Of a stretch of DNA of 21,972 nucleotides, positions 1 to 20,553 are shown one piece after another. Numbering within the stretch: position 1 is the stretch's first letter; every line of letters begins with the position of its first letter. The stretch is from a virus, in the IMG/VR virus record IMGVR_UViG_3300022538_000412, positions 1 to 21,972 of that record, one strand, 5' to 3'. The translations under genes were made by a program, and so were the position numbers. The notes below the pieces were generated by a model. It had not been told where the DNA came from. It saw nothing but the letters and a program-made list of their open reading frames with translations, and ran no database searches.

Positions 1-529
1 AATCAGGATATTAGCTCCTGGAATGTTGGTAATGTAACTGATATGACAGATATGTTTGATTATTGTACTAAATTTAATGGTAATATTAGTTCCAGGGATT
101 TCAGAAATGTAACTAATATGAGAAATATGTTTGGTTCTTTTACTAAATTTAATTAGGATATTAGTTCCTGGAATGTCAGAAATGTAACTGATATGAATGG
201 TATGTTTGTTCATTGTACTAAATTTAATTCGGACATTAGTAAATGGAATGTCAATAAAGTAACTGATATGAGATGGATGTTTTATAAATGTACTGATTTT
301 AATCAGGATATTAGCTCCTGGAATGTTGGTAATGTAACTGATATGAGTTGGATGTTTGCTTATTGTACTAAATTTAATTCGGACATTAGCTCCTGGAATG
401 TTGGTAATGTAACTAATATGAATAAGATGTTTTATCATGCTGATAATTTTAAACAGGATATTAGCAAATGGAATGCCAGTAAAGTAAGATAATATGAGTT
501 GTATATTTGCTCATTGTACTAAATTTAAT
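1..529 (+). pseudogene. Broken DUF285 (BspA-like) repeat gene, 5' end outside window
   Basis: The frame opening at base 1 encodes ~25-aa repeats of the type MFxxCTKFNxDISSWNVxxVTDM, the DUF285/BspA-like leucine-rich repeat. The frame is broken twice. A TAG at 154-156 stands where the other repeats have CAG (Asn-Gln-Asp-Ile), so one C-to-T change explains it. Near 491 one extra T turns AGA-AAT-ATG into AGA-TAA-TATG. Repeat sequence resumes after the shift and stops at about 529, just before a strong hairpin. The stretch 193-492 remains open and could make a 99-aa piece. Paralogues at 9460-9999 and 18037-18870 are intact and show the expected N- and C-terminal caps. DUF285 proteins are known from Mycoplasma and BspA surface proteins, and their repeats mediate binding. 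The start and any secretion signal of this copy are not visible. Confidence 0.85.
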
Positions 530-541
530 ATCAATCATATT

Positions 542-573
542 CTCAAGACGATTTTTAAACAAATCGTCTTGAG
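542..573. terminator. Perfect 13-bp hairpin, possible terminator
   Basis: CTCAAGACGATTT (542-554) is perfectly complementary to AAATCGTCTTGAG (561-573), with loop TTAAAC. It lies exactly where DUF285 repeat homology ends. The nearest T-run (TTTTTT) starts about 10 bases after the stem, so it is not a textbook intrinsic terminator. It may be a terminator or a recombination-scar inverted repeat. Confidence 0.55.
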
Positions 574-670
574 GAAGTGGGGTATTTTTTGGTTTCATTT
601 TTGACAAAATATTTGCAAAGAATTAGAGTATATTTTACCAAAAAGTTGCAATTTTTACCAGTGAAAAAGC

Positions 671-892
671 GTGTTTTATGTTGTTGTGTTGGAGTTTTTT
701 GAGTTATTCAGGTTGGACTATATAGAATACAAACGAGATACGAATGGTCAACTGATCTCTTATACAAAATATATGAAAAGTCTTTCACGAGAACCTTTGT
801 ATAAAGGCGATAAGGATAATCCCAATATTCCAAATCCAAAAGGAAAGATTATTGATATTCTCAAAGATAAATATCCAGAGGAATTTAAATAA
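671..892 (+). pseudogene. Chimeric ORF carrying a DUF285-protein C-terminal end
   Basis: The open frame of 73 codons ends PKGKIIDILKDKYPEEFK, almost identical to the C-terminus of the intact DUF285 protein at 18037-18870 and similar to that of 9460-9999. The first ~54 residues (MFYVVVLEFFELFRLDYIEY...) match nothing else here and contain no DUF285 repeat. No good ribosome site precedes the ATG. I read it as the displaced 3' end of the broken gene at 1-529 joined to unrelated DNA. Bases 838-914 are identical over 77 bp to 18816-18892, covering the C-terminal codons, the stop and the next promoter's -35. Whether it is translated is unknown. Confidence 0.55.
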
Positions 893-6148: not shown

Positions 6149-6352
6149 ATGGAGAATGTACAACAAACTGATATTAAGTTGAAAAAATTTAATAATATAA
6201 AAATAATTAAAAGTGAGTATAATAGTATATCAGTTAATTCATCTGAAGACAACAAAACGAGCAAGAATAGCAAGACGTTGGGTTCTATTACTCCAAAATC
6301 ATTATATGTTATAAAGTATATAGCTGAAAACACAGCAATGTTGCATACATAA
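6149..6352 (+). CDS. 67-aa hypothetical protein
   Basis: An AATAAGGAGAAGTAAATG start region like that of the capsid-targeted genes precedes this frame, 22 bases after the previous stop. The product is Lys-, Asn- and Ser-rich (MENVQQTDIKLKKFNN... with DNKTSKNSKTLG) and looks largely disordered. It ends SLYVIKYIAENTAMLHT. No family recognised and no leader cleavage motif. Bases 6353-6440 after it hold no gene. Confidence 0.45.
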   Translation: MENVQQTDIKLKKFNNIKIIKSEYNSISVNSSEDNKTSKNSKTLGSITPKSLYVIKYIAENTAMLHT

Positions 6353-6446
6353 CATATATTTCTGCACACCTTAGAAACACCTTTAATAAACAAAGTATAG
6401 TCTATACTAAAAATAATTTTAAGTAAACTATTAGTACCAAAAAGTA

Positions 6447-6550: not shown

Positions 6551-7043
6551 TGAAAATGAATATAAAATAAAATTAGAAAAACTTGACGAAGAAACTAGTG
6601 AAGAATTAATTTCAAATGGTACTAGAGACCACGAATTGGCTTTAATTTATCAGTTTTTAAAAACAGCTAAACGGAGTGTTAATATTATTTCTAATAGGTT
6701 ATTTTTTTATGACGATTTGTCAATATTAGAAGTCTTAAATATAGCGTTGAACAGAGGTGTAAAAATAAAAATCCTATTAGATGATTACCAAAACAACAAG
6801 ATAACCAATAACACTTTTTTAAGTAACTGCCTTGATAATGAGAATTGCGAAATCAAAACTTATGACAAACCTTTAAAAGCTCATATTATTACTAGAGATA
6901 ATAACGCATTTAGATATTGTGATAATCCTGGTAGCAATATAGCAGTGGCTAGTTTTTCACGTCCTAGTGTTGTTAAAAATGCGACAGAAAAACTGTTTGG
7001 TGATTTTTTTAATCAACAACCCGAATACAAGCCCATAGTGTAG
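6543..7043 (+). CDS. Phospholipase D-like fold protein (tentative)
   Basis: In this 166-aa protein, residues ~28-110 read like one PLD-type half-domain: ALIYQFLKTAKRSVNIISNR (a helix then strand), LEVLNIALNRGVKIKILLDD (the usual helix-GVxxxILLD strand), then CEIKTYDKPLKAHIITRDNNAFRY. In active PLD enzymes the last block would be HxKxxxxD; here it is H-I-I-T-R-D, so the catalytic Lys is missing. A degenerate, non-catalytic or binding version is likely. Such domains occur in bacterial immunity and phage proteins, with no firm role. The gene has an AAAAGG ribosome site and the promoter at 6447. Confidence 0.45.
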   Translation: MNSENEYKIKLEKLDEETSEELISNGTRDHELALIYQFLKTAKRSVNIISNRLFFYDDLSILEVLNIALNRGVKIKILLDDYQNNKITNNTFLSNCLDNENCEIKTYDKPLKAHIITRDNNAFRYCDNPGSNIAVASFSRPSVVKNATEKLFGDFFNQQPEYKPIV

Positions 7044-8304: not shown

Positions 8305-9270
8305 ATGAAAAAAACAGTACTAGGGATAGATATTGGGTATGGAGACGTAAAAATTACGGTCGGAACTTCTGAAGGACGAATTGATAAGCAATTTAAATTC
8401 ACTAGTACTATAGGAATTACTAAAAGAAATGAACATATTAAAGATGCTCGTATTTACGACTACATGGAACATTCATATTATGTGGGCGAAAATGCATTAC
8501 ACCTACCATCTGAAAATCTAATTGATATTAATGATTATAAGAATTTAGAATATTATGCTCCGCTATTTTTATTTGAAGCAATTAAAATGATTGGATTTAA
8601 ACCTGATATTATTGTTAGTGGTTTATCAAAAGCACAGATTGAAAATTCAGGACACTTTAAAGAAAGACTAAAAAACTTTACTGTTAATGACGAACAATTT
8701 ATATTCGATGAAGTTTATATTTTACCACAAGGTGCAGGATCAAAAATATGTATTGATAAATATGGAAATAATTTCCCGCATCTTCAAGAAGAATTTATAG
8801 ACGAAACAACATTCGTTGGATGTGATATTGGCTTCAATACCCTTGATATGTTTTTAGTTACTAATGGCAAGACATCACCGAATTTATTCGAGGGTATTGA
8901 ACGTGAAGGAATAATGAAAATTGCAACTGAGGTAGCTAAGAAAGTTAGGGAACTCTATGGAAGACAAATTACATTACATGAAGCAAAGGAAATAATTGAT
9001 AGTGGAATCTATAAATTACGTGGTGAGAAACATGCATTCAAAGAATATATTGATGAAGTTAAAAAAACATATTTAAAAGATTTACTTGCATTAATTGAAT
9101 CTAAATATGGAAATATTCTTGATAAGTGTGACTTTATTAGTCTTAGTGGTGGTGGAAGTACTATATTTAAAACTACAATTGATGGATTCTTGAGAGTACC
9201 AAAAACTAAACACGAATACTATAATGCCATCGGTTTTTTTCTGTATGGTTTAACTATATTAAATAAATAG
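8305..9270 (+). CDS. ParM-like actin homologue
   Basis: This 321-aa protein has the actin/Hsp70 nucleotide-binding signature: phosphate-1 GIDIGYGDVK (7-16), phosphate-2 CDIGFNTLD (173-181) and an adenosine motif SLSGGGS (279-285). Length and motif spacing fit ParM/Alp plasmid- and phage-type actins (about 320-350 aa), not MreB or FtsA. ParM filaments push replicated plasmids apart; phage versions may position or segregate viral DNA. Ribosome site AGGGGA (8295-8300). A 58-aa gene follows at 9281. No clear ParR or direct-repeat centromere is visible, so the partner is unknown. The gene suggests that the element can persist extrachromosomally, which is inference. Confidence 0.85.
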   Translation: MKKTVLGIDIGYGDVKITVGTSEGRIDKQFKFTSTIGITKRNEHIKDARIYDYMEHSYYVGENALHLPSENLIDINDYKNLEYYAPLFLFEAIKMIGFKPDIIVSGLSKAQIENSGHFKERLKNFTVNDEQFIFDEVYILPQGAGSKICIDKYGNNFPHLQEEFIDETTFVGCDIGFNTLDMFLVTNGKTSPNLFEGIEREGIMKIATEVAKKVRELYGRQITLHEAKEIIDSGIYKLRGEKHAFKEYIDEVKKTYLKDLLALIESKYGNILDKCDFISLSGGGSTIFKTTIDGFLRVPKTKHEYYNAIGFFLYGLTILNK

Positions 9271-9280
9271 GAGAAATAAA

Positions 9281-9457
9281 ATGAATGGTAAAAAGGCAAA
9301 AATGTTGAGAAAACAAGCAGAAAAAATTTCAGCGGGACTACCATTAAAATCATATAAGATAAATAATGATACTACTATTGTTTTAGATAAATGTACTCGT
9401 AAGTATTACAAAATACTTAAACAAGAATATAAAACAAAAAAAAATAATCTATTATAA
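9281..9457 (+). CDS. 58-aa basic phage protein
   Basis: It starts 10 bases after the actin-like gene behind AGGAGA. The product MNGKKAKMLRKQAEKISAGL..., with DKCTRKYYKILKQEY near the C-terminus, is strongly basic. Its build (N-terminal KxAKxLRKxAE, then a late CTRxxYxxLK block) resembles a small uncharacterised protein I recall from various phages. It might bind DNA or the actin-like protein. Position and spacing suggest cotranscription with the actin gene. Confidence 0.6.
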   Translation: MNGKKAKMLRKQAEKISAGLPLKSYKINNDTTIVLDKCTRKYYKILKQEYKTKKNNLL

Positions 9458-9459
9458 AG

Positions 9460-9999
9460 ATGAAAACAGTAGAAATAAGCAATAATAATTTAAAAACTAT
9501 AGTTCTGCAACAAATTGATGAGCATGGTAATAATGTAGACCTTAATCATTTGGATACTAGTAAAGTAACTGATATGTATGAATTATTTAATAGTTCTAAA
9601 TTCAATGGTGACATTAGTAAATGGAATGTCAGTAGAGTAACTAATATGTGTGGGATGTTTTCTTATTGTACTAAGTTCAATGGCGACATTAGTAAATGGG
9701 ATGTTAGTAAAGTAAGAAATATGAATGATATGTTTGCTTATTGTACTAAATTTAATCAGGATATTAGCTCCTGGAATGTTGGTAAAGTAAGAGATATTAG
9801 TAGGATGTTTGCTTATTGTACTAAATTTAATCAGGATATTATTTCCTGGAATGTTAGTAGCGTAACTGATATGGGATATATGTTTGTATATGATAATTTT
9901 AAATATGTAGATATTCTTAAAGAATACTTCAATGGTTCTATTCCAAAAGGAAAGATTATTGATATTCTCAAAGAAAAATATCCAGAGAATTTTATTTGA
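9460..9999 (+). CDS. DUF285 (BspA-like) repeat protein
   Basis: This 179-aa protein has an N-cap (MKTVEISNNNLKTIVLQQID, then NNVDLNHLDTSKVTDM), about four repeats of ~25 aa (MFxYCTKFNxDISSWNVxxVxxM) and a C-cap ending GKIIDILKEKYPENFI. Both caps recur in the 277-aa paralogue at 18037. No signal peptide or lipobox is present, unlike Mycoplasma DUF285 lipoproteins, so a cytoplasmic or virion location is more likely than a cell-surface one. The ATG is two bases after the previous stop, with no strong ribosome site, suggesting coupling. The repeat solenoid implies protein binding; the partner is unknown. Confidence 0.85.
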   Translation: MKTVEISNNNLKTIVLQQIDEHGNNVDLNHLDTSKVTDMYELFNSSKFNGDISKWNVSRVTNMCGMFSYCTKFNGDISKWDVSKVRNMNDMFAYCTKFNQDISSWNVGKVRDISRMFAYCTKFNQDIISWNVSSVTDMGYMFVYDNFKYVDILKEYFNGSIPKGKIIDILKEKYPENFI

Positions 10000-10025
10000 A
10001 TAAACTATTTATATACATAAAACTA

Positions 10026-10034
10026 TGTTATAAT
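10026..10034 (+). promoter_or_regulatory. Extended -10 promoter at the left edge of the host-like block
   Basis: TG-T-TATAAT (TATAAT at 10029-10034) follows AAACTATTTATATACATAAAAC, an upstream sequence shared with the promoter at 5868. The conserved hairpin is absent; after ~10040 the sequence becomes less AT-rich. Confidence 0.6.
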
Positions 10035-10086
10035 ATATCTATTAAAAATGTAACTGCAATTAAATTTAAAGGAAAAAGTTTTAACA

Positions 10087-10323
10087 ATGCACGAATTTAT
10101 TGCAAAGATTATGCTGAAAACAAGCCAAGAATTATTATATTATCCGAATTACTTAAAATTCGACAAAAGCGGTCAAGCATCTTGCCCGTATTGTAGTGCC
10201 ATAAACTTTAATGAGTGGCAATGGCTAAAAAAATTAAAGGTGTTTTACCTTTATAAATGGGCGTTGCCCATTTTAACAGTTGGTAAAAATTATCAACAAA
10301 ATTGTAGGAGTATGAAAAAATGA
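10087..10323 (+). CDS. Doubtful 78-aa ORF, host-like composition
   Basis: An open frame MHEFIAKIMLKTSQELLYYP... with one CPYC pair (residues ~33-36) and a hydrophobic stretch VFYLYKWALPILTV. It has a possible AAAGGAAAAAG site and overlaps the next ATG by ATGA. A perfect hairpin (10255-10273) lies inside it, which argues for a transcription end rather than a coding region there. It may be a fragment of a bacterial gene. No family recognised. Confidence 0.3.
   Translation: MHEFIAKIMLKTSQELLYYPNYLKFDKSGQASCPYCSAINFNEWQWLKKLKVFYLYKWALPILTVGKNYQQNCRSMKK
10255..10273. terminator. 8-bp GC-containing hairpin
   Basis: AAATGGGC (10255-10262) pairs perfectly with GCCCATTT (10266-10273) across a three-base loop, followed by only a short T stretch. 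Possible intrinsic terminator. Confidence 0.35.
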
Positions 10324-10559
10324 AGTTTAAACAATTAACAGTTTTTGGGGTTTCCGCAGGAAAAGACGGACAAAACACGCTGAGATTTGAGGATGGTGAT
10401 ATTTTAAGTGGTCACGAACAAGAACACACTGAATGGGAATTTACATATACCTCAGCCAGCACAGGTTATAAAAACAAAGCACGTTTTTATAAAAATAATA
10501 TATCAGGGGTTGCTTATAATAACGGCGACAGCGTTAATCCGCCTGGAACTGATGCGTAA
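10320..10559 (+). CDS. 79-aa hypothetical protein, host-like composition
   Basis: The frame MKFKQLTVFGVSAGKDGQNT... is polar, beta-rich (EWEFTYTSASTGYKNKARFY) and ends GDSVNPPGTDA. It is visibly less AT-rich than the phage genes. A TAGGAG site (10304-10309) lies 10 bases before the ATG and even closer to a three-codon frame (MKK) overlapping it. I recognise no family. Bases 10560-10729 after it show no convincing gene on either strand. Confidence 0.45.
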   Translation: MKFKQLTVFGVSAGKDGQNTLRFEDGDILSGHEQEHTEWEFTYTSASTGYKNKARFYKNNISGVAYNNGDSVNPPGTDA

Positions 10560-10729
10560 TTCCAGATAACAGAACGCCCATAACCAAGATGAATGCTGAT
10601 TAAAAATATGCAAATAATAATCAGTTAAATTTGCCAAAATTAAGCTCAATAACAACCTAATAGACCATACAAATCTAGTGTTATTGCCAGATTTAGCGGT
10701 AAGTTTTTGTTGCATTTTTACGCCTTTGA

Positions 10730-10806
10730 TGGTGCCCTCGATGCGATTTGAACGCATGACCTGCCGCTTAGGAGGCGGCTGCTCTATCCAGCTGAGCTAC
10801 GAAGGC
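10730..10806 (-). tRNA. tRNA-Arg (anticodon CCU)
   Basis: Read on the minus strand: acceptor GCCTTCG pairs with CGAGGGC, D-arm GCTC/GAGC, anticodon stem GCCGC/GCGGC with loop CTCCTAA (anticodon CCU, decoding AGG), T-arm ATGCG/CGCAT with loop TTCAAAT, and CCA encoded at the 3' end (10730-10732). All arms pair well, so it should be functional. Encoded CCA and composition fit a gammaproteobacterial gene. It points opposite to nearly all genes of the window. Confidence 0.95.
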
Positions 10807-11075
10807 AATGTGATTATTATCCACGATATGACTATCCATTGAAATATTTGCATTATTTTTATCCGTTTTAGTGGAACAAGCCTTGCCCGTTCTTTTGTTT
10901 TTAGAAACGATCAAGGCTCGCTTTGGATAGGTGTTTTGTATGACTTGATATTTTACAAATCTATGTCATTTAAATCACAGTGAGACCTTTGCGTAATCAT
11001 CCCTATTTTATGCAAAGGTCTATCTAATAAAGAAATATGTTTTTTAAAAATCATATAAATGTGTGAGGATAAAAT
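10807..11075. other. Gene-free stretch with two inverted repeats
   Basis: No convincing coding frame on either strand. It holds an inverted repeat AGCCTTG...CAAGGCT (10879-10918) with an inner CGTT/AACG pairing, and a second at 10983-11021. The last ~20 bases supply the GAGGAT ribosome site for the next gene. Confidence 0.6.
10983..11021. repeat. Inverted repeat, possible IS-end remnant
   Basis: AGACCTTTGC (10983-10992) and GCAAAGGTCT (11012-11021) are perfect inverted copies 19 bases apart. The sequence GAGACCTTTGC resembles the terminal repeats of some IS5-family elements (from memory, unverified), so this may be a collapsed IS or a very short non-autonomous element. It could also act as a terminator, but there is no T-run. 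Confidence 0.4.
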
Positions 11076-11810
11076 ATGAACCAAGATAACGATTTAGTAC
11101 AAGATTACCTTCTATCCATAAAAAAAATACAGGATGAGAATAGCCAGATAATTACCAATAGGATAAGCTTTTCTTATGCAAAAATATTGCCAGATTTTTT
11201 AGAAAAAAATGAACTTATAGAAAATAGTGGACCAGTAGAAATTAGCGATAATTCAATATCAAGAACATCTTTAGCACATAAAGCTATGTTTGACTTATGT
11301 GACGGATCCAAAAGTATTAAAATATTTGCCAAAGGTCTTCATAAAAATATATACAGTTCAGATTTTGTAATCGAATCTTTTAAAAGATTTGTAGTAAGGT
11401 TTGTTGCAAAAAAAGATAAAACTACTGATATTCCAATGATATTAATTGTTAAAGAATATAATGAAAAATGTAAGGATAATATTAGCAAATCAAATTTTGT
11501 AAAGGAAGCTTTAAATCTTAAAAAGAAATATTCTAGAGATATTTTAAAGATATTAATGGTTGAAGACCCAAAGAAAGAAATAGAAGTTAATGTATTTGAT
11601 GTAAACGATAAAAACATTACACCTAAACAAGCAAAGGGAAAATATAAGTCGGCTGATATTTGCTCTTTTTCTATTTTTGGGGATTTTTACAGTTTTAGAC
11701 AGACCAATAAGAGTGGTCATAAAGCTTATATTAACCTAAAAGATACATTGGGGATTAAAACATTTAATGAAAATTTTAATACATTAAACAACTTATCCAA
11801 AGCCGTTTGA
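11076..11810 (+). CDS. Hypothetical protein, 244 aa, possibly PLD-like
   Basis: A complete AT-rich frame behind GAGGATAAAAT (11063-11073), lying between two tRNA genes. The product MNQDNDLVQDYLLSIKKIQD... is soluble and Lys-rich. A region SLAHKAMFDLCDGSKSIKIF (about 65-84) and a C-terminal SIFGDFYSFRQTNKSGHKAY then FNENFNTLNNLS resemble the layout of PLD-like binding proteins. In particular the C-terminal block recalls DNNAFRY...ATEKLFGDFF of the protein at 6543. No HKD catalytic motif is present. Similarity is suggestive only. Composition contrasts with the flanking host-like tRNAs, so it looks like a phage or accessory gene inserted here. Confidence 0.5.
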   Translation: MNQDNDLVQDYLLSIKKIQDENSQIITNRISFSYAKILPDFLEKNELIENSGPVEISDNSISRTSLAHKAMFDLCDGSKSIKIFAKGLHKNIYSSDFVIESFKRFVVRFVAKKDKTTDIPMILIVKEYNEKCKDNISKSNFVKEALNLKKKYSRDILKILMVEDPKKEIEVNVFDVNDKNITPKQAKGKYKSADICSFSIFGDFYSFRQTNKSGHKAYINLKDTLGIKTFNENFNTLNNLSKAV

Positions 11811-11866
11811 ATCGTGTTCGGTGTACCACTTCAAGACAAAGAGTATATAGTCAATTATGAATATTA

Positions 11867-11943
11867 GTCACGTTAGCTCCAACTGGTAGAGCAGTGGATT
11901 CCAAATCCAATGGATCGAGGTTCGAATCCTTGACGTGGCGCCA
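11867..11943 (+). tRNA. tRNA-Trp (anticodon CCA)
   Basis: Acceptor GTCACGT/ACGTGGC, D-arm GCTC/GAGC, anticodon stem GTGGA/TCCAA (one terminal mismatch) with loop TTCCAAA (anticodon CCA), variable TGGAT, T-arm CGAGG/CCTTG with loop TTCGAAT, discriminator G and encoded CCA at 11941-11943. It folds as a normal 77-nt tRNA and decodes UGG. Its final CCA overlaps the start of a tRNA-Met remnant. Confidence 0.93.
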
Positions 11944-11984
11944 TAACCTGAAGGTCACGTGTTTAAATACTGTCCTAGCTACCA
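11941..11984 (+). pseudogene. 3' half of a tRNA-Met
   Basis: From CATAA (CAT at 11942-11944 in anticodon position), continuing CCTGAAGGTCACGTGTTTAA and ending TCCTAGCTACCA, the sequence reads as the 3' half of an elongator tRNA-Met (cf. E. coli ...CAUAA...GGUCAC...GUAGCCACCA). The T-stem has mismatches and no 5' half is present. It begins exactly inside the CCA of tRNA-Trp, sharing CCA/CCAT, so it looks like a recombination junction. Possible attachment-site or tRNA-array scar. Confidence 0.55.
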
Positions 11985-12005
11985 ATTAATTTAAATTATA
12001 AATAA

Positions 12006-12788
12006 CTAAAAAAAAAGAGTTACTACGTATATAGAATTACTAATGCATATTCGTATAAGCATTATTATGGATATAGGAGTTGTAATTGTTCTCCCTATGA
12101 AAATCTAGGTAAACATTATTTTAGCTCTAGTAGAGATAAAGAATTCAAAGAAGATCAGAAGCAAAATCCTGAAAATTATAAATATAAAATAATTAGAACA
12201 TTTGACAACAGTAAAGATGCTCTGGAACTTGAAATAAAATTACATAAAAAATTCAATGTTGGAGTAAATGAATCATTTTATAATAAAGCAAAACAGACAA
12301 GTACTGAATTCTCAACACATGGAACAAAACATACCAAAGAAACTAGAGACAAATTATCAGGTAAAATACCTTGGAATAAAGGCATAGGATTAACAGATAA
12401 ACATAAGAAAAAGATTTCTATAGCTGGTAAAGGTAGAAAACAAACTAAAGAAACAAAGAAAAAGATATCCAAATCTATGAAAGACAGAGAACCATGGAAT
12501 AAAGGTAGAACATATTCTGATGTAATTGGATACAAATGTTCTAAAAATGCAACAGCGAAGAAAATAAACATCTATAATGTAGAGGATGAACTAATGTTTG
12601 AGTGCCATGGTAATTTTAAAAAGATTTGTATAGATAATGATTTACCGTTTGCATCACTTAAAACATCATATCAAAACAATAACATAAAATTGTTTGGAAG
12701 CGAAAAAGGATATTCAAAAAAATTAATTGAAAAATATAAAAATTTTTCTGGATGGTATGCTAGAATTAAATTTACAAATAAAAGTTAA
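12006..12788 (+). CDS. GIY-YIG homing endonuclease with NUMOD3 repeats, no start codon
   Basis: The frame is open from 12006 (after TAA 12003-12005) to 12788, about 260 codons. It opens LKKKSYYVYRITN...KHYYGYRSC, the GIY-YIG core (YVY and YYG), followed by ENLGKHYFSSSRDKEF and ALELEIKLHKKFN with the conserved acidic residue. Then come NUMOD3-type DNA-binding segments (SGKIPWNKG; ISIAGKGRKQTKETKKKIS; EPWNKGRTYS) and a C-terminal NUMOD1-like part. This is the architecture of T4 Seg/I-TevI-like enzymes. No ATG, GTG or TTG lies in frame before the catalytic core: CTA stands where the initiator would be, next to a run of A. Either a rare start is used or the 5' end is damaged. ATG 12477 would give only a DNA-binding fragment. 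It is inserted between the tRNAs and dnaK. Confidence 0.8.
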   Translation, partial: LKKKSYYVYRITNAYSYKHYYGYRSCNCSPYENLGKHYFSSSRDKEFKEDQKQNPENYKYKIIRTFDNSKDALELEIKLHKKFNVGVNESFYNKAKQTSTEFSTHGTKHTKETRDKLSGKIPWNKGIGLTDKHKKKISIAGKGRKQTKETKKKISKSMKDREPWNKGRTYSDVIGYKCSKNATAKKINIYNVEDELMFECHGNFKKICIDNDLPFASLKTSYQNNNIKLFGSEKGYSKKLIEKYKNFSGWYARIKFTNKS

Positions 12789-12803
12789 ACATAGGTAAAA
12801 CTA

Positions 12804-12840
12804 TGTTATAATAACTACTAATAGCAATGATGCTTATTAG
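12804..12840 (+). promoter_or_regulatory. Phage-type promoter and leader hairpin in front of dnaK
   Basis: TG-T-TATAAT (TATAAT at 12807-12812) is followed by a stem-loop at 12818-12840: CTAATAGCA pairs with TGCTTATTAG with one bulged T. The outer arms differ from other copies of the module (CAAA/TTG) but still pair. Downstream comes AAAAGGAGAAATAAAATG, like the start region at 9271-9283. No heat-shock (sigma32) promoter is visible. Confidence 0.8.
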
Positions 12841-12862
12841 TTAACTAAAAAGGAGAAATAAA

Positions 12863-14770
12863 ATGTCAAAGATTATCGGTATTGACTTAGGCACAACCAA
12901 TTCATGCGTGGCCATTATGGATGGCGGTAACGTTAAAATTATTGAAAATGGAGAGGGTGATCGCACTACCCCATCTATTATCGCTTATCCAAAAGACTCT
13001 GAAGAGGTTTTGGTTGGTCAGCCAGCAAAACGTCAAGCGGTTACCAATCCTGAAAATACGCTATACGCAATTAAGCGTTTAATTGGTCGTCGTTTTGATG
13101 AGGATGCTGTACAAAAAGACATTAATCTTGTGCCTTATAAAATTGTCAAAGCTGACAATGGTGATGCTTGGGTTGAGGTTAAAGGCAAAAAAATGGCCGC
13201 GCCTGAAATTTCAGCAAAAGTCATTGGTAAAATGAAAAAAACTGCTGAAGATTATTTAGGCGAAGAAGTTACTGAGGCAGTTATCACAGTGCCTGCTTAC
13301 TTTAACGACTCACAACGCCAAGCAACTAAAGATGCAGGCAAAATTGCAGGTCTTAATGTTAAGCGCATTATCAATGAGCCAACCGCAGCAGCATTGGCTT
13401 ATGGTGTTGACAAAGTTAAAGGTGATAAAGTTGTCGCTGTCTATGACTTAGGTGGTGGTACATTTGACGTATCTATCATTGAAATGGAAGACATTGATGG
13501 TGAAAAACATTTTGAAGTACTCTCTACCAATGGGGATACTTTCCTAGGTGGTGAAGATTTTGATCAACGTATTATTGGCTATTTAGTTGATGAGTTCAAA
13601 AAAGACCAAGGTGTTGATTTAACCAATGACCCTATGGCACTACAGCGCTTAAAAGAAGCCGCTGAAAAAGCTAAGATTGAGTTGTCTTCTTCTGAGCAAA
13701 CCGAAGTCAACTTACCTTACGTGACTGCAGATGCTTCAGGTCCTAAACATCTTAATATTAAAATCACTCGTGCCAAGTTAGAATCATTGGTTGAGAATCT
13801 ACTCAAACGCACTATTGAGCCATGCAAAATCGCACTTAAAGATGCAAATTTATCTGCAAGTGATATTGATGAAGTCATCTTAGTAGGTGGTCAAACACGC
13901 ATGCCTAAAGTCACGAAAGTAGTACAAGACTTTTTTGGTAAAGAGCCTAAAAAAGATGTCAACCCTGACGAGGCAGTAGCAATGGGTGCTGCCATCCAAG
14001 CAGGTGTATTAGGTGGTGATGTTAAAGATGTCTTGTTACTAGACGTCACGCCATTATCTCTAGGCATTGAAACCATGGGCGGTGTTATGACCAAACTAAT
14101 TGAGAAAAATACAACCATCCCTACCAATGCAAGCCAAATTTTTTCAACCGCAGCTGACAATCAATCTGCAGTCACTGTGCATGTATTGCAAGGTGAGCGT
14201 GATATGGCTAGTGCCAATAAATCATTAGGTCAATTCAATCTTGATGGCATTCCAAATGCACCTAAAGGTCAGCCTCAAGTCGAAGTAACATTTGACATTA
14301 ATTCTGATGGCATCTTGGATGTATCTGCCAAAGACAAAAATACTGGTAAAAAGCAATCAATCACCATTAAAGCCTCATCTGGTTTAAGTGATGAAGAGGT
14401 TGAGAAAATGATTAAAGACGCTGAAGCACATGCTGATGAGGATAAGAAGTTCCAAGAATTAGTCACTAGTAAAAACATGGCAGATTCCTTAATACACTCA
14501 ACCAAGCAAACGCTAGAAGAGCTAAAAAATGAAGTTTCTGATGATGAAAAATCAGCGATTGAAACGGTCATTACCGAACTTGAAAAAGCCATTAAAGGCG
14601 ATGACAAAGAAGCCATTGATGCCAAGGTTCAAAGTTTAAGTGAAAAAGCACAACCGTTGGCTGAAAAAGCACAAGCCAAAGCAGGTACCGAAAACGCCTC
14701 GCAAGAAAAACCAAACACTGATGATGACGTGCTTGATGCTGATTTTGAAGAGGTTAAAGACGACAAATAA
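12863..14770 (+). CDS. dnaK: Chaperone DnaK (Hsp70)
   Basis: This 635-aa full-length Hsp70 opens [20 protein letters not shown] (phosphate-1). It has [11 protein letters not shown] (~171), [10 protein letters not shown] (~195), VGGQTRMP (~340), the interdomain linker VLLLD (390-394), the beta substrate-binding domain to ~505, a helical lid, and the C-terminal [16 protein letters not shown] (EEVKD-type tail). It binds exposed hydrophobic peptides in an ATP cycle driven by DnaJ and GrpE; no grpE is in the window. The sequence is of gammaproteobacterial type, with a base composition clearly above its AT-rich neighbours, so it looks acquired or host-derived. Its promoter and leader are of the element's own type. 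A terminator separates it from dnaJ. Confidence 0.98.
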
Positions 14771-14791
14771 AAGGTTAAAAACCTAACAACT

Positions 14792-14831
14792 AAAACCTTC
14801 CCTAAGAGACAAAGCTTGAGGAGGGTTTTTT
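14792..14831 (+). terminator. Intrinsic terminator between dnaK and dnaJ
   Basis: AAAACCTTCC (14792-14801) pairs with GGAGGGTTTT (14820-14829) with one G-U pair, and the stem runs into TTTTTT. The loop is 18 bases. It may reduce rather than abolish read-through, as no promoter is seen before dnaJ. Confidence 0.8.
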
Positions 14832-14846
14832 AATAATAAGGCAACT

Positions 14847-15941
14847 ATGTCACAAAGAGATTATTACGAAGTACTGGGTGTTGCAAAAAATTCAGATGCC
14901 AAACAAATTAAAAAAGCTTACAAGCATTTGGCAATGAAACACCATCCTGATCGGGTTAAAGACGACAAGGCATCAGCTGAAAAAAAATTCAAAGAAATTC
15001 AAAAAGCTTATGCCATTTTATCCGATGCCCCAAAACGCCAAGCTTACGACCAATTTGGTCATGCAGGTGTGAACGGCAATGCTGGTGCCGCTGGTGGCAA
15101 TCCATTCAATGGTGGCTTTGGCGATATTTTTGGCGATATTTTTGGCGGTGGCTCTCAACAATCCAACAATCGTGGCTCAGATTTGCGTTATGATTTAGAA
15201 ATTGATTTAAAAGAAGCGGCACAAGGCACTACCGTTAAAGTTCGTATTCCGAAAAATGAAACTTGCGACACCTGCTCAGGCACTGGCGCAAAACCCGGCA
15301 CCAATGTTAAAACCTGCTCAACCTGTGGCGGTGCAGGACAAGTACAAATACAACAAAGATTTTTTGCCGTACAACGCCCTTGTGGCACTTGCTCTGGTAC
15401 AGGTCAAAAAATTGAATCGTCTTGTGGCACTTGCCGTGGACAAGGCGTGGTGCGCAAGCAAAAAACCCTATCAGTCAAAATCCCTGCAGGCGTAGACACA
15501 GGCAATCGCATTCGTTTGAATGGCGAAGGCGAGGCAGGTGCTAGAGGTGGTCCTACTGGTGATTTATACGTGCAAGTTCACGTTAGAAAGCACGCCATTT
15601 TTGAACGTGAAGACAACGATTTGTATTGTGAAGTGCCTATTGACTTTGCAACTGCAGTGCTGGGTGGTTCAATTGAGGTGCCCACACTTGAGAATAAATT
15701 AAAAATTAAAGTCCCAGCAGGCACTCAAACTGGAAAACTATTTCGCTTGCGTGGCAAAGGCATTGCCCATCTTCAGCGTGGTGGCTCTGGCGATTTAATC
15801 TGTCAAGTTAAGATTGAAACGCCTGTCAATCTTAACAAAAAACAACAAGGCTTATTGCAAGAGTTCTCCAGTTCATGTGGCAAAAAGCATTACCCTGAGT
15901 CAGGTTCTTTCTTTGATAAGATGAGGTCATTTTTTGAATAA
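14847..15941 (+). CDS. dnaJ: Co-chaperone DnaJ (Hsp40)
   Basis: This 364-aa type I J-protein has a J-domain at 1-70 with HPD at 33-35, a Gly/Phe-rich linker (~75-115, with [14 protein letters not shown]), and a zinc domain with four CxxCxGxG motifs ([32 protein letters not shown]; ~140-205). Substrate-binding beta domains and a dimerising tail follow. It delivers clients to DnaK and stimulates its ATPase. AAGG (14837-14840) is the ribosome site. All key residues are present. Its last codons contain a 16-base string that recurs at 16654-16669, and part of its zinc-domain sequence recurs at 19381-19421. Confidence 0.98.
15904..15919 (+). repeat. 16-bp direct repeat, copy 1 (end of dnaJ)
   Basis: GTTCTTTCTTTGATAA within the last codons of dnaJ (GSFFDKM) is identical to 16654-16669. 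The two copies bracket the endonuclease/mazF/mazE segment. Confidence 0.7.
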
Positions 15942-16021
15942 CTTTTCTACTTTGTCTATTTTTAGTAAATAATATACAATTTTCAAAATGAAATGGTATC
16001 TTTTCATATTCGAAATGTCAC

Positions 16022-16315
16022 CTATTTTGGAACAGTAAAACATGATATTTTTAGTCTATTTTTAGCACTATTTGACATTAGTTTCTTTGTTGCATTAATA
16101 TGTTTTTTACCATACATAGGATTATTTTCATTAGATTTAGATTCTGACATTTTTCTTTTTGTTTCATCTGAAAATATTCTACCTTTACCAGCAATAGATA
16201 ATTTTAATTTTGTCTTTTCAGACATATTTAATTTACTAACAGACATTTTTCTTTTTTGATTCTTTTGAATGTTTTCTACCTTCTGTTGGTTCAAAATCCA
16301 ACCAAACAATATCAC
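16022..16315 (-). pseudogene. NUMOD3 fragment of a homing endonuclease
   Basis: On the minus strand the frame encodes NUMOD3-type DNA-binding repeats: QKRKMSVSKLNMSEKTKLKL, SIAGKGRIFSDETKRKMSES and NENNPMYGKKH. No GIY-YIG or HNH catalytic part precedes them; the upstream end is mazF sequence read in another frame. The repeats resemble those of the endonuclease at 12006-12788 (SIAGKGR is shared). It is therefore a detached DNA-binding tail, not an active enzyme. Confidence 0.7.
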
Positions 16316-16340
16316 CTCTATTTGGAATATAATTACTCAT
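16236..16340 (-). pseudogene. Truncated MazF-type toxin
   Basis: The ATG (16340-16338) overlaps the stop of mazE, the usual MazEF arrangement. The peptide MSNYIPNRGDIVWLDFEPTE is a clear MazF/PemK N-terminus (GDIVWxDFEPxxG). It then runs into RKHSKESKKKNVC and a stop. KHSKES already looks like NUMOD3 linker, and a one-base change in the following A-run would let it read on into the NUMOD3 repeats (KRKMSVSK). The RNase core (RPALVLS and beyond) is missing, so no toxin activity is expected. Confidence 0.8.
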
Positions 16341-16578
16341 ATTCACTGTTTAACAGGTTAGGTGCTAAATCAGCATGTGCATTACTTACTGTTATATCCG
16401 ACAATAACTCCTGTTCGGTGAATTTTCTATTGGTTGGCTTGACAGCGCTAAAACCATTTTCATTGATGGTTATGGTTAATAAATCACCTTTTTTAAGGTT
16501 TGGGATAGTTCTTAATGCGCCAGACATTCTAAGTGCTAATCCGTTACCCCATTTTTGTACTCGGCTTTCTATTTGCAT
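16333..16578 (-). CDS. mazE: MazE-type antitoxin (AbrB fold)
   Basis: This 81-aa protein opens MQIESRVQKWGNGLALRMSG, the AbrB/MazE swapped-hairpin DNA-binding motif (xxKWGNSxAxRIP). It then has LKKGDLLTITINENGFSAV and an acidic, flexible C-terminus of the kind that blocks MazF. Ribosome site is AAAGGAG on the minus strand. It appears intact while the adjoining toxin gene is cut off after about 20 codons, so it is an orphan antitoxin. It may still autoregulate or neutralise a host MazF. Composition is closer to the dnaKJ block than to phage genes. Confidence 0.88.
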   Translation of the reverse strand: MQIESRVQKWGNGLALRMSGALRTIPNLKKGDLLTITINENGFSAVKPTNRKFTEQELLSDITVSNAHADLAPNLLNSEYE

Positions 16579-16602
16579 TTTAATAAATAACTCCTTTAGA
16601 AT

Positions 16603-16610
16603 TATTTATA
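16603..16610 (-). promoter_or_regulatory. Late-type octamer TATAAATA upstream of mazE
   Basis: On the minus strand TATAAATA lies 24 bases before the mazE ATG, near the spacing seen for the capsid-targeted genes. It may be coincidental in AT-rich DNA. Confidence 0.35.
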
Positions 16611-16653
16611 TTAATAATAATTTACTATTTCATGTAGTTTACCATAAAGTTAA

Positions 16654-16669
16654 GTTCTTTCTTTGATAA
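16654..16669 (+). repeat. 16-bp direct repeat, copy 2
   Basis: An identical copy of the dnaJ-end string at 15904-15919, here in non-coding DNA just before the AT-rich phage-type sequence resumes. Confidence 0.7.
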
Positions 16670-16717
16670 AATTATATTGAATTAATTCAAAATAAACTAT
16701 CTATGATACTAAAACTA

Positions 16718-16754
16718 TGATATAATAGAATTATCAAAAGCAATAATGCTATTG
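16718..16754 (+). promoter_or_regulatory. Extended -10 promoter with leader hairpin
   Basis: TG-A-TATAAT (TATAAT at 16721-16726) and hairpin CAAAAGCAATAATGCTATTG (16735-16754). Bases 16689-16755 match 17949-18015 with a single difference, so this is a duplicated promoter cassette. It drives the peptidase-like gene. Confidence 0.8.
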
Positions 16755-16761
16755 ATTAAAA

Positions 16762-16777
16762 GGAAGGAAGGAAGGAA
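16762..16777 (+). repeat. GGAA tetranucleotide repeat in the ribosome site
   Basis: Four tandem GGAA units lie directly before the ATG at 16778 and form its Shine-Dalgarno region. A further GGAA lies before a second in-frame ATG at 16787. Slippage in the repeat would change spacing to the start. Confidence 0.75.
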
Positions 16778-17272
16778 ATGAAGGAAATGAAAGAAGAATT
16801 ACAATATTCATATAATGATGGTGGACGATCAAAATATTTCAAAGGAAATGCTGGAGATTGTGTAGTTAGAGCATTAGCATTATTCACTAGCTCGGATTAT
16901 AAAGAAATGTATAATTCATTAAAAGATTTTAATATTAAACTAAAACCATTCAAACGCAAAACTAAGAAGCATCTTGCTTTTATAGAAAGAATTAATAATG
17001 AAAGTTCACCAAGAACAGGAATATTTCTTGAAGTATTGAAATTATTTATTGAACAAAAGGGTTATAATTGTTCTCACACTAAAGAACCCCGAAAACTTAA
17101 TACTTTTAAAAAAGGAACTTATTTAATAAAGATTAGAAAACATATTATAACCATCAAAAATGGTGTATTATATGATACTTGGGATAGTAGAAAAAGACCC
17201 GCTGGAACTAATGGTATTGATCATTGGGATGAAGTGTATAGAACTGCAACACAATGGTGGAAACTTAATTAA
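16778..17272 (+). CDS. Papain/C39-like cysteine peptidase-type phage protein
   Basis: This 164-aa protein has NAGDCVVRALALFT (24-37) with candidate nucleophile Cys28, KHIITIKNGVLYDTWD (121-136) with candidate His122 and Asp133 or Asp136, and TGIFLEVLKLF between them. This Cys...His-x-x-x-x-x-NG...D layout is typical of small papain-like proteins found in many phages and prophages (GDCxVRA, then H...G...D). No signal peptide. Substrate unknown; family members may cleave a peptide or be inactive. The start could be 16778 or 16787, since both ATGs have a GGAA-type site. It is expressed from the promoter-hairpin module at 16718. Confidence 0.65.
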   Translation: MKEMKEELQYSYNDGGRSKYFKGNAGDCVVRALALFTSSDYKEMYNSLKDFNIKLKPFKRKTKKHLAFIERINNESSPRTGIFLEVLKLFIEQKGYNCSHTKEPRKLNTFKKGTYLIKIRKHIITIKNGVLYDTWDSRKRPAGTNGIDHWDEVYRTATQWWKLN

Positions 17273-17298
17273 TAATTTTAAAATTATGTTTGAGTATT

Positions 17299-17566
17299 AA
17301 GTAGAAAAAAATGAATGAAAGGTAGATTTGCTTATCTATTAATTAGTTTAAATATTAAATAATTAAATAATTAAATTAACCTATTTATTACTATAACAAA
17401 TAACCTATCAATTAAATAAGTAGAAAAAAATGAATGAAAGGTAGATTTGCTTATCTATTAAATATAAATTTAATTTAATAAATTAACCTATTTATTACTA
17501 TAACAAATAACCTATCAATTAAATAAGTAGAAAAAAATGAATGAAAGGGTAGATTTGCTTATCTGT
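17299..17566 (+). repeat. Three direct repeats, 107-119 bp apart
   Basis: Units start at 17299, 17418 and 17525 with the same ~42 bases (AAGTAGAAAAAAATGAATGA, then AAGGTAGATTTGCTTATCT). The first two continue through a variable A/T spacer into an identical block with two AACCTAT strings and ATTACTATAACAAAT. The third is partial and has an extra G (AAAGGGTAG). Each holds a small stem TAGAT-ATCTA. Bases 17273-17600 contain no convincing gene. The units could be iterons, a regulatory array, or repeated decayed leaders (each has ATGAATGAAAGG, reading MNER-stop in the first two). Confidence 0.85.
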
Positions 17567-17606
17567 AATTAGCCTAAAATAAAAATTATTTACAAAACTA
17601 AAACTA

Positions 17607-17644
17607 TGTTATAATAGATTTATCAAAAGCATTAAATATTATGC
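17607..17644 (+). promoter_or_regulatory. Extended -10 promoter with variant leader hairpin
   Basis: TG-T-TATAAT (TATAAT at 17610-17615) then a stem GCAT/ATGC at 17629-17644 in place of the usual AGCA/TGCT. The stem position is kept while the sequence differs. About 130 bases of leader follow before the gene at 17774, including a doubtful 18-codon frame at 17665-17721. Confidence 0.65.
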
Positions 17645-17737
17645 AATAATAATTGAAAAATCAAATGAAAAAAATAAGTAATTTTAAAAATTATTTTATA
17701 TGCGAAAACCAAATAAAATAAATTATTACAGTAATTA

Positions 17738-17745
17738 TATAAATA
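17738..17745 (+). promoter_or_regulatory. T4-type late promoter octamer TATAAATA
   Basis: Exact octamer 28 bases before the ATG at 17774, the same distance as at 3223. The gene would then have both an early-type (17607) and a late-type promoter. Confidence 0.4.
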
Positions 17746-17773
17746 AATCAAATAATAATAAGGAGTAGTAAAA

Positions 17774-17911
17774 ATGAAGAATTTATTGATTAAGATAAAG
17801 AATTTATTAACTAAAGAAAGGATTATTTTCATACGTGTATTTTTTATGTTATCATGTATAACAGTAATATTTTTTGTATTTACTATATATGCTATGTATA
17901 TTGTGATATAG
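17774..17911 (+). CDS. 45-aa membrane peptide
   Basis: AAGGAG (17760-17765) precedes the ATG. The peptide has a basic amphipathic start (MKNLLIKIKNLLTKERI) and one long hydrophobic helix with Phe, Val, Ile and Met (about residues 20-44) running to the stop. It would be anchored with the N-terminus in the cytoplasm. Candidates include a holin-like or superinfection-type peptide, but nothing specific shows this. Confidence 0.5.
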   Translation: MKNLLIKIKNLLTKERIIFIRVFFMLSCITVIFFVFTIYAMYIVI

Positions 17912-17977
17912 AATCTTTTAACAATATTAGAAATGGTAATTATTATTTAAAATAAACTATCTATGGTACTAAAACTA

Positions 17978-18014
17978 TGATATAATAGAATTATCAAAAG
18001 CAATAATGCTATTG
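17978..18014 (+). promoter_or_regulatory. Extended -10 promoter with leader hairpin
   Basis: TG-A-TATAAT (TATAAT at 17981-17986), hairpin at 17995-18014, then AAAAGGAAAAA before the DUF285 gene. It is the duplicate of the cassette at 16689-16755. Confidence 0.8.
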
Positions 18015-18036
18015 AATAATAAAAGGAAAAATAAAA

Positions 18037-18870
18037 ATGGTAAAAGTAACAAATAAAAATATAAAGAGGATAATTGAAGACCTTATTGATAATTATGGTA
18101 ATAATGTTAATCTTAATCATCTTGATGTTAGTAGAGTAACTGATATGAGTGGTATGTTTTCTCATTGTACTAAATTCAATGGTGACATTAGTAAATGGGA
18201 TGTTGGTAATGTAACTGATATGAGTTATATGTTTGCTTCTTGTTCTAAGTTCAATGGCGACATTAGTAAATGGAATACTAATAAAGTATCTGATATGAGT
18301 TGTATGTTTGCTCATTGTACTAAATTTAATTCGGATATTAGTTCTTGGAATGTCAGTAATGTAACTAATATGAATAGGCTGTTTTCTCATTGTACTAATT
18401 TTAATTTGGATATTATTTCCTGGAATGTCAGTAAGGTAACTAATATGAATGGATTATTTGCTTATTGTACTAAATTTAATTCGGATATTAGTTCTTGGAA
18501 TGTCAGTAAAGTAAGAAATATGAATGATATGTTTGCTCGTTGTACTAAATTTAATTCGGATATTAGTTCCTGGGATGTCAGTAAAGTAAGAGATATGAGA
18601 AGTATGTTTTCTCATTCAGATTTTAATGGTGACATTAGCTCCTGGGATGTTAGTAAAGTAAGAGATATGAATAGGATGTTTTATAAAGCTAAGATTTTTA
18701 ATTCGGACATTAGTAAATGGAATGTCAGTAATGTAACTGATATGGATTATATGTTTGTATATGATAATTTTGAACGTGTAGATATTCTTAAAGAATACTT
18801 CAATGATTCTAATCAAAAAGGAAAGATTATTGATATTCTCAAAGATAAATATCCAGAGGAATTTAAATAA
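18037..18870 (+). CDS. DUF285 (BspA-like) repeat protein, long form
   Basis: This 277-aa protein has an N-cap (MVKVTNKNIKRIIEDLIDNY), nine or so repeats of ~25 aa with the signature MFxHCTKFNxDISSWxVSxVxDM, and a C-cap with VDILKEYFND and GKIIDILKDKYPEEFK. The repeats are nearly identical at DNA level (75-bp period), inviting unequal recombination; the 9460 paralogue has fewer. It has no signal peptide, lipobox or membrane segment. It is probably a binding scaffold; target unknown. Ribosome site AAAAGGAAAAA, own promoter and leader hairpin. Some repeats diverge (for example a shortened SHSDFNGDISSWDV), so the array is not a recent uniform expansion. Confidence 0.88.
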   Translation: MVKVTNKNIKRIIEDLIDNYGNNVNLNHLDVSRVTDMSGMFSHCTKFNGDISKWDVGNVTDMSYMFASCSKFNGDISKWNTNKVSDMSCMFAHCTKFNSDISSWNVSNVTNMNRLFSHCTNFNLDIISWNVSKVTNMNGLFAYCTKFNSDISSWNVSKVRNMNDMFARCTKFNSDISSWDVSKVRDMRSMFSHSDFNGDISSWDVSKVRDMNRMFYKAKIFNSDISKWNVSNVTDMDYMFVYDNFERVDILKEYFNDSNQKGKIIDILKDKYPEEFK

Positions 18871-18874
18871 TAAA

Positions 18875-18932
18875 TTGATTTAAGTATTAAATCAATGTTA
18901 TAATAGAATTATCAAAAGCAATAATGCTAATG
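18875..18932 (+). promoter_or_regulatory. Promoter-hairpin module without a gene
   Basis: TTGATT (18875-18880), an 18-base spacer, TG-T-TATAAT (18899-18904) and hairpin at 18913-18932 are followed by AAAAAGGATAAAATTGG. ATT stands where ATG is expected, and the frame stops four codons later. The unit seems to have lost its gene, or to make a non-coding transcript across 18940-19190. Confidence 0.65.
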
Positions 18933-19190
18933 AATAATAAAAAGGATAAAATTGGTTTAAATTATAATAAATAAATATAAGCACAAAATAAAGAATAAAG
19001 AATAAATTCTTTATATAATCCTTATATTTAAATCTTGGTTTTTTTTATAAACTGAGTTAATTCTTAATAGTTCGGTTATTCTATAAATGTATAGAAATGA
19101 AACTATCGTTGGGTGAGATGCCCAAATCAAATTTGTGCTAAATTAAAAATCAGTAATTCAATTTAGCATAAATAAAATTGGTAAGAATTA
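18933..19190. other. Gene-free stretch with stem-loops
   Basis: No coding frame is convincing. It holds ATAAAGAAT/ATTCTTTAT (near 18990-19012), a TTGGG/CCCAA stem near 19109-19125, and a longer inverted repeat TTTGTGCTAAATT (19132-19144) / AATTTAGCATAAA (19160-19172) with one G-T pair. The last is a candidate terminator or structured RNA. Confidence 0.5.
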
Positions 19191-19193
19191 CTA

Positions 19194-19228
19194 TGTTATA
19201 ATAAAACTATCAATAATGACTAATTATT
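19194..19228 (+). promoter_or_regulatory. Extended -10 promoter with variant leader hairpin
   Basis: TG-T-TATAAT (TATAAT at 19197-19202) then AATAAT-GACTA-ATTATT at 19212-19228. A stem of different sequence stands at the usual leader position. AAGGAAGG follows as ribosome site. Confidence 0.7.
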
Positions 19229-19246
19229 AAATAAGGAAGGAATAAA

Positions 19247-19801
19247 ATGAATATATTTAAACATAAAGTATTTAATATACCATCTATTGGGGATATTAGA
19301 AAGATACGGATTGTAGATTTTATGAAAAGACTAATTAAAGTACCAATATTAAAATCTAATCCATCTACTCTATCTAATCCACCTGCTCAACCCATGGTAG
19401 TGCAGGACAAGTACAAATACACAAAATTAATAACAAAATATATAGTAATTTTTGATCGTGTTATTGGTATATATGAAATTGATGGATATGCGTATATTAA
19501 ACTTGATATTGTATATCCCGAATATAATTATAACATATATATAATTGATCGTTACTCATATATTAACTTTGGTATCGTATATCATGAACCTAATTATGAT
19601 ATATATGAAATTAATAATTACGCGTATATTAAGGTTGATATCGTATACCCAGAATCTAATTATGAGATATTTTGTAAAAGGAAAGATGCATTATTTCAAA
19701 ATTTCTTACAAAAACTTAGAAAAGGTAAACCACTTCAAGATTTCAAAAAATCTAAAAATTATAATTATTATGTTAAAAGATTAAAGAAATATAGAGTTTA
19801 A
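19247..19801 (+). CDS. Tandem-repeat protein, 184 aa, with an embedded dnaJ fragment
   Basis: Complete frame with its own promoter and AAGGAAGGAA site. Residues ~75-145 are three 22-aa repeats (pattern xIYEIDxYAYIKxDIVYPExNY), 66 bp at DNA level and rich in Tyr and Ile, probably beta-strands. A basic tail follows (KSKNYNYYVKRLKKYRV). Just before the repeats, PPAQPMVVQDKYKYTK (46-61) is encoded by a 41-bp stretch (19381-19421) nearly identical to part of dnaJ but read in a different frame. No known family. The repeat unit suggests a binding or structural role; a virion or host-interaction function cannot be shown. Confidence 0.65.
   Translation: MNIFKHKVFNIPSIGDIRKIRIVDFMKRLIKVPILKSNPSTLSNPPAQPMVVQDKYKYTKLITKYIVIFDRVIGIYEIDGYAYIKLDIVYPEYNYNIYIIDRYSYINFGIVYHEPNYDIYEINNYAYIKVDIVYPESNYEIFCKRKDALFQNFLQKLRKGKPLQDFKKSKNYNYYVKRLKKYRV
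19381..19421 (+). repeat. 41-bp dnaJ-derived segment
   Basis: Ungapped alignment with 15312-15352 (zinc domain of dna[15 protein letters not shown] region) gives 37 of 41 identical bases, including a run of 22 (19400-19421). It stands out as GC-richer than the surrounding gene. The dnaJ frame is not kept. Confidence 0.85.
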
Positions 19802-19848: not shown

Positions 19849-20553
19849 ATGTTTAATAAAGACATTGTAGATGTACTAACTCAAATTAATGGAGTTACAA
19901 ACTCTATTATTTTAAAATACCCTCAAACAGTTGCAGTTTCAGATGCGCAAGATGTTATGGTATTGATTGATATTTCAGATCTTGATTCTGATAAATTTCC
20001 AGATATAGGTTTAAAAGATTCATTGGGTGATTTACTAAATTTATTTAAATTATTCCCAGATGGGCGAAATGTATCAATTGAAGGTAATACTATCAATATT
20101 TCTAATGGTAATATAAGTTCATCTTATATTGTAGATAATATTGCTTTAATGGATGCCTATGATAAAGATGCTAATCAATTTGATAAGACTGAAGGCGCAC
20201 CAAATGTAGCAACATTTAATTTAACTATTAATGACATTAAAAATATTAAATCTGCTACAGGTGTATTTAAAGATTTATCAGAGGTATTATTTACTTCAAA
20301 AGATGGCGATATAAAAGTTAGTCTTGGTGCTACAAATAAATTTAATGCTAAAAGTAATACATATAGCGTAAATAAAAATGCAAAGACAACAAAAGAATTT
20401 GAAGTTAAAATCCCAGTTGAGAATTTTAAAACAATACCAGTATCAGATTACACAGTCAATATAAAATATAATTCAAATAAAGATTCTTATAGAATTTTTA
20501 TGCAGAATAACTCTCTGGCTAAATTAAAAATTATTATGAGTATGAAAGTATAG
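19849..20553 (+). CDS. Sliding clamp (T4 gp45-like)
   Basis: This 234-aa protein is close to T4 gp45 (228 aa) in length. It shows the same two-fold clamp layout: an N-terminal helix then GVTNSIILKYPQTVAVSDAQ (cf. INSGIMLKSGQFIMTRA in gp45), ISDLDSDKFPDIGLKDSLGDLLNLFKL (cf. ISDVIDFDVAIYDLNGFLGI), a middle linker with ATFNLTINDIKNI, and FEVKIPVENFKTIPVSDYTVNIKY (cf. FNFIINMANMKMQPGNYKLLLW). Trimeric gp45 tethers the phage polymerase and, with gp33/gp55, also activates T4 late promoters. That fits the TATAAATA boxes seen in the window. Ribosome site AAGGAA (19836-19841). Confidence 0.85.
   Translation: MFNKDIVDVLTQINGVTNSIILKYPQTVAVSDAQDVMVLIDISDLDSDKFPDIGLKDSLGDLLNLFKLFPDGRNVSIEGNTINISNGNISSSYIVDNIALMDAYDKDANQFDKTEGAPNVATFNLTINDIKNIKSATGVFKDLSEVLFTSKDGDIKVSLGATNKFNAKSNTYSVNKNAKTTKEFEVKIPVENFKTIPVSDYTVNIKYNSNKDSYRIFMQNNSLAKLKIIMSMKV

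Follow-up and report, generated by a model that had tools for sequence, protein, structure and literature searches.

An out-of-frame fragment of dnaJ ahead of a conserved phage gene: a probable recombination junction

A sequence that encodes one protein can yield a new peptide when it is read in another frame, a process known as overprinting or gene extension. Chaperone genes are among the cellular sequences carried by viruses. For example, large aquatic 'moraphages' are reported to carry dnaK and dnaJ of host origin (PMC12619734). Pestivirus genomes with an inserted cellular DnaJ (Jiv) sequence are described in two sources (PMC4333670, PMC3983300), one of which presents an insert as encoding DnaJ (PMC4333670). 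Our literature searches found nothing specific on out-of-frame host fragments in phages.

Here, we describe such a fragment in a viral record of 21,972 bases (IMGVR_UViG_3300022538_000412), which was analysed whole and is called the window below. A 41-nt piece of dnaJ lies near the start of a 184-aa ORF and is read in a frame other than that of dnaJ. This fragment is probably a junction scar that now links a new N-terminus to an older gene, and host (or resident) dnaJ would have been its partner in an illegitimate recombination.

The phage and its host-derived DNA

The record is probably a fragment of a larger genome. Its genes include a topoisomerase subunit, a parM-like actin, a sliding clamp and HNH/homing endonucleases; together with 30 relatives found via the clamp, this gene set identifies a T4-like phage. 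The closest named relatives by clamp are Vibrio phages of 191–196 kb, such as pv27 and Va1 (64–65% identity). The dnaKJ genes, a tRNA-Arg and other pieces of the window match Candidatus Ruthturnera/Ruthia symbionts. These matches point to a host most likely within that group, probably a deep-sea sulphur-oxidising bacterium of the Ruthturnera type. A sister contig of the same phage is 100% identical to the window and stops at position 17426, leaving one contig to cover the fragment site. It ends within a non-coding repeat (17298–17571) of three copies spaced 107–119 bp apart.

The window's dnaKJ cassette matches a Ca. Ruthturnera MAG at 98.6% identity, with 22 synonymous differences over ∼667 sites (3.3%); the match opens at the dnaK start codon and closes with the dnaJ stop codon. 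Beyond these ends, phage and MAG diverge at once, apart from a common ribosome-site motif, and the cassette is preceded by a promoter-like repeat of phage type together with a ribosome site. Fragments of a NUMOD3-type endonuclease flank it in opposite orientation (12410–12477 and 16138–16205, inverted repeat I1) and are perhaps related to its insertion.

Several further pieces of host DNA are present. A 446 bp stretch (10576–11021, 97%) carries a tRNA-Arg(CCT) on the minus strand and derives from a host intergenic stretch adjoining a pyrF-like gene. Similar ORFs occur in phage and host at 6182–6380 (93%) and 6578–7029 (84%). The stretch at 16272–16581 is 82% identical to Ca. Ruthia Cpac and holds a toxin–antitoxin piece: a MazE-like antitoxin ORF is whole (16333–16578, minus strand), and a MazF/PemK-like toxin gene is represented in the matched stretch by its start only. 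This piece may be a phage-borne antitoxin. Finally, a host repeat-like stretch (524–724, 86%) separates the repeats of a DUF285 gene from the gene's C-terminal end and looks like an interruption of it. DUF285 genes with a 25-aa repeat occur three times in the window (1–890, 9460–9999 and 18037–18870), and a relative of these genes lies on a Ruthturnera contig at about 70–74% nucleotide identity.

As a weak control, the corresponding region of a related phage, one with no known host, gave no host pieces in a search of ten SUP05-type genomes. A first-pass annotation of the window, made from the sequence alone, had proposed that DnaJ-coding DNA had for some time been in contact with the element. 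The differing divergence of the pieces described above supports long contact with host DNA. The window illustrates repeated uptake of host DNA by a T4-like phage, the smallest piece being 41 nt and the largest a full dnaKJ cassette.

Table 1. Coordinates of the features discussed in the text
Feature	Position in window	Strand	Basis or remark
parM-like actin gene	8305..9270	+	in relatives, adjacent to the small gene on its upstream side (gene order)
∼10 kb region between parM and the small gene	9271..19246	+	absent from relatives at this site
dnaK, host-derived	12863..14770	+	cassette with dnaJ; match to host
dnaJ, complete, host-derived	14847..15941	+	match to host
dnaJ stretch matching the fragment	15312..15352	+	zinc-finger CxxCxGxG region; in-record alignment
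184-aa ORF with the fragment	19247..19801	+	TATAAT-like element at ∼19195–19203 and purine-rich AAGGAAGG ribosome site before the ATG
N-terminal extension, residues 1–61, lineage-specific	19247..19429	+	no homologue found; pLDDT <50 over residues 1–69
dnaJ-derived fragment	19381..19421 (gapped to 19425)	+	37/41 to dnaJ; +1 frame of dnaJ
Conserved family part, residues 62–181	19430..19789	+	family profile; repeated unit D11
Sliding clamp (DNA polymerase processivity factor)	19849..20553	+	clamp relatives

The match to dnaJ and its possible donors

The fragment aligns with dnaJ free of gaps and in the same orientation, with 37 of 41 identities and an exact run of 22 bases. A one-base gap lengthens the alignment to 19425/15357, where 41 of 46 columns are identical. 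The match, the run and the later gap had all been noted in the first-pass annotation, and they are confirmed here at E = 5.8e-12 within the record. When dnaKJ was compared with the rest of the window in ungapped +1/−1 scoring, the top score was 34; 60 second-order Markov shuffles gave a mean of 17.7 and a maximum of 21. The longest exact dnaKJ run elsewhere in the window was 22 bases, against at most 16 in the shuffles. These controls reject chance similarity. Coverage of the site by a single contig would suit an assembly chimera. However, a chimera would normally hold an exact copy of dnaJ rather than one with four substitutions, and an open frame running into a conserved gene would hardly be expected of it. 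An origin by chance or chimera is thus highly improbable.

A search for other short dnaK or dnaJ pieces, which the annotation had proposed, found none of comparable significance in the window. One candidate, a possible second scrap from the 3′ end of dnaJ at 16639–16672 (16 identical bases), was rejected at E 0.03, with a run inside the range of the shuffles. Other viral contigs did not contain the fragment, save for dnaJ itself in the same phage. Comparison with host dnaJ had been suggested as a route to the closest donor. The fragment is 90% identical to dnaJ of the phage and of two host genomes (L006 and L007), and four whole host genomes held nothing closer than dnaJ itself.

All four mismatches (19393, 19394, 19398 and 19399) are transitions. 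Phage and MAG dnaJ are identical across the 41 bases, and the fragment differs from both at these four sites. At 19398 its base is that of the Cpac symbiont, although this symbiont differs at another site; the shared base is a hint, not proof, of a different donor allele or of an event further back in time. Four changes in 41 are more than would be expected from the synonymous difference of 3.3% that separates the dnaKJ genes of phage and MAG. However, the numbers are small and the donor may have been another allele, and the claim that this is not a brand-new copy is only weakly supported.

These comparisons also bear on a variant of the junction scar that differs in its donor alone. Once the cassette had been acquired, template switching inside the phage genome may have copied the fragment from the resident dnaJ, in place of direct capture from the host. 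The two sequences have the same orientation and lie 4 kb apart, and the identity of phage and MAG dnaJ over the 41 bases makes the two donors indistinguishable by sequence. However, set beside the cassette's 22 differences in ∼667 synonymous sites, 4 in 41 means that a copy younger than the cassette must have changed fast, and one of the four differences is common to the Cpac allele. We give this variant a fairly low probability, and either donor would fit a junction scar.

The annotation had also raised sense homology to dnaJ mRNA or DNA as a role, for which we found no evidence. The fragment could in principle act as a homology arm that helps the dnaJ genes of phage and host to recombine, or regulate dnaJ by nucleic-acid pairing, and its 22 perfectly identical bases in direct orientation would suit such uses. 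However, an RNA transcribed from the fragment has the same sense as dnaJ mRNA and is therefore unable to pair with it, and the complete phage dnaJ already gives 1.1 kb of homology. Both roles are very unlikely.

A conserved small gene and its N-terminal extension

The ORF reads the fragment as PAQPMVVQDKYKY, the +1 frame of dnaJ and not the DnaJ peptide. It had been annotated as an unrelated gene. It indeed has no relation to dnaJ, but the C-terminal two thirds of the protein belong to a conserved phage family found next to the clamp gene. A family profile built from 13 relatives matches the ORF at E 3.7e-17 over residues 62–98 and 117–181 and not over residues 1–60; the match is carried by residues 117–181 (E 1.3e-16) and is weak over 62–98. 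A unit of 22 aa (66 nt) is repeated in the middle of the protein. The TATAAT-like element upstream belongs to the promoter-like repeat family D8. The 184-aa ORF has no Pfam or PHROG match, and the PHROG matches of its relatives are all weak.

In relatives, tblastn located homologues of the C-terminal part upstream of the clamp. About a dozen related viral contigs carry the family, of ∼86 aa, in the interval from parM to the sliding clamp. Vibrio phages have it at the corresponding place, as a 99-aa CDS between the partition gene and the clamp. The relatives' homologues are stand-alone ORFs of about 84–97 aa whose starts coincide with that of the domain or lie close to it. The window shares the downstream order, with the clamp beginning (19849) just after the ORF ends (19801). 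The 184-aa ORF differs from the short form that begins at the domain next to parM, which is usual and not universal in the family.

Family homology begins only downstream and the relatives' homologues have no such extension, so the gene is conserved and its N-terminal 60 residues are new. The extension of ∼60 aa occurs in the window ORF only, and the searches made found neither a homologue nor a second sequence of it. The fragment encodes residues 46–58, the last part of the extension, and ends (19421–19425) 5–9 nt ahead of the first homologous codon (19430). Its place within an extension that relatives lack supports two suggestions of the first-pass annotation, that it is a recombination scar and that it is a source of new protein sequence. 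The alternative of an ancient peptide conserved in homologues is rejected; we looked for it, and it is absent from all of them.

The start codon of the 184-aa ORF is predicted. In simulations that joined 134 bases of like composition to the real fragment, the extension stayed open in frame in 1.4% of sequences, which lends mild support to translation of the predicted extension. When the four changes are read in the frame of the ORF, one altered codon is silent, two give conservative replacements (V to M and A to V) and no stop arises. The open frame and the nature of these changes would fit an extended N-terminus, dnaJ-derived peptide included, that was selected for a new protein function by exaptation of out-of-frame host sequence. 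However, four changes are too few by far to test for selection, and the extension has no homologue for a test of conservation. The low pLDDT in Table 1 comes from a structure model based on an alignment of 16 sequences; confidence for the extension is very low in this model, and a specific function for it is thus unsupported. We consider exaptation unlikely.

Origin of the junction and comparison with known systems

In the window, ∼10.2 kb separate parM from the small gene; in many relatives the two overlap or touch. The overlap is 4 nt in five relatives and 1 nt in a sixth, and a few nucleotides lie between the genes in two more, giving at least eight relatives in which they overlap or nearly touch. 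The interval in the window contains DUF285 repeat proteins, tRNA-Arg, tRNA-Trp, NUMOD3/HNH-like fragments and host DNA. Other sequence also separates the two genes in relatives L107 and L109. Insertions thus happen at this site anyway, which counts against the junction scar as an explanation.

Nonetheless, we favour a junction scar that would have arisen as follows. The ancestor would have carried a gene of ∼86 aa directly after parM, as in the relatives with a 4-nt overlap. This overlap suggests that translation of the small gene was probably coupled to that of parM. A host-DNA-rich region of ∼10 kb, including the dnaKJ cassette, would then have come to part the two genes, and a non-homologous join at its downstream edge would have set the dnaJ piece immediately before the point where the small gene once started. 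Further upstream, an ATG equipped with a promoter-like element and a ribosome-binding sequence would later have opened a frame that crosses the dnaJ piece in the +1 frame of dnaJ and runs into the old gene, giving the new ∼60-aa N-terminus. The location of the fragment on the border of the conserved stretch, together with the many host pieces, favours non-homologous joining during phage replication, perhaps guided by microhomology. The data contain no intermediate form, and the order of events is thus not observed. Most likely, the fragment would have no role other than to connect the older gene with its new start. In a bolder version, a host-DNA-rich insertion cut a conserved gene from its translational coupling, fusion to a new start by way of an out-of-frame piece of a host chaperone gene rescued it, and the N-terminus is now functional; this version seems rather unlikely.

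The locus offers a base-resolution view of a step that is usually erased, in which a scrap of host DNA becomes new coding sequence fronting a conserved phage gene. It resembles the mosaicism of tailed phages, where illegitimate recombination likewise joins non-homologous sequences at gene edges or close to them and host genes are carried. Unlike the captured host genes of mosaic phages, the piece described here is 41 nt long and is read in another frame within a conserved phage gene. The Jiv insertions of pestiviruses, as those sources present them, also place a piece of a cellular DnaJ-type gene inside a virus gene. However, the inserts they describe span hundreds of nucleotides in RNA viruses, whereas here a DNA phage carries 41 nt that are out of frame. 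Overprinting uses two frames at one site, whereas here a duplicated fragment lies in another gene; in both, an alternative frame yields a new peptide.
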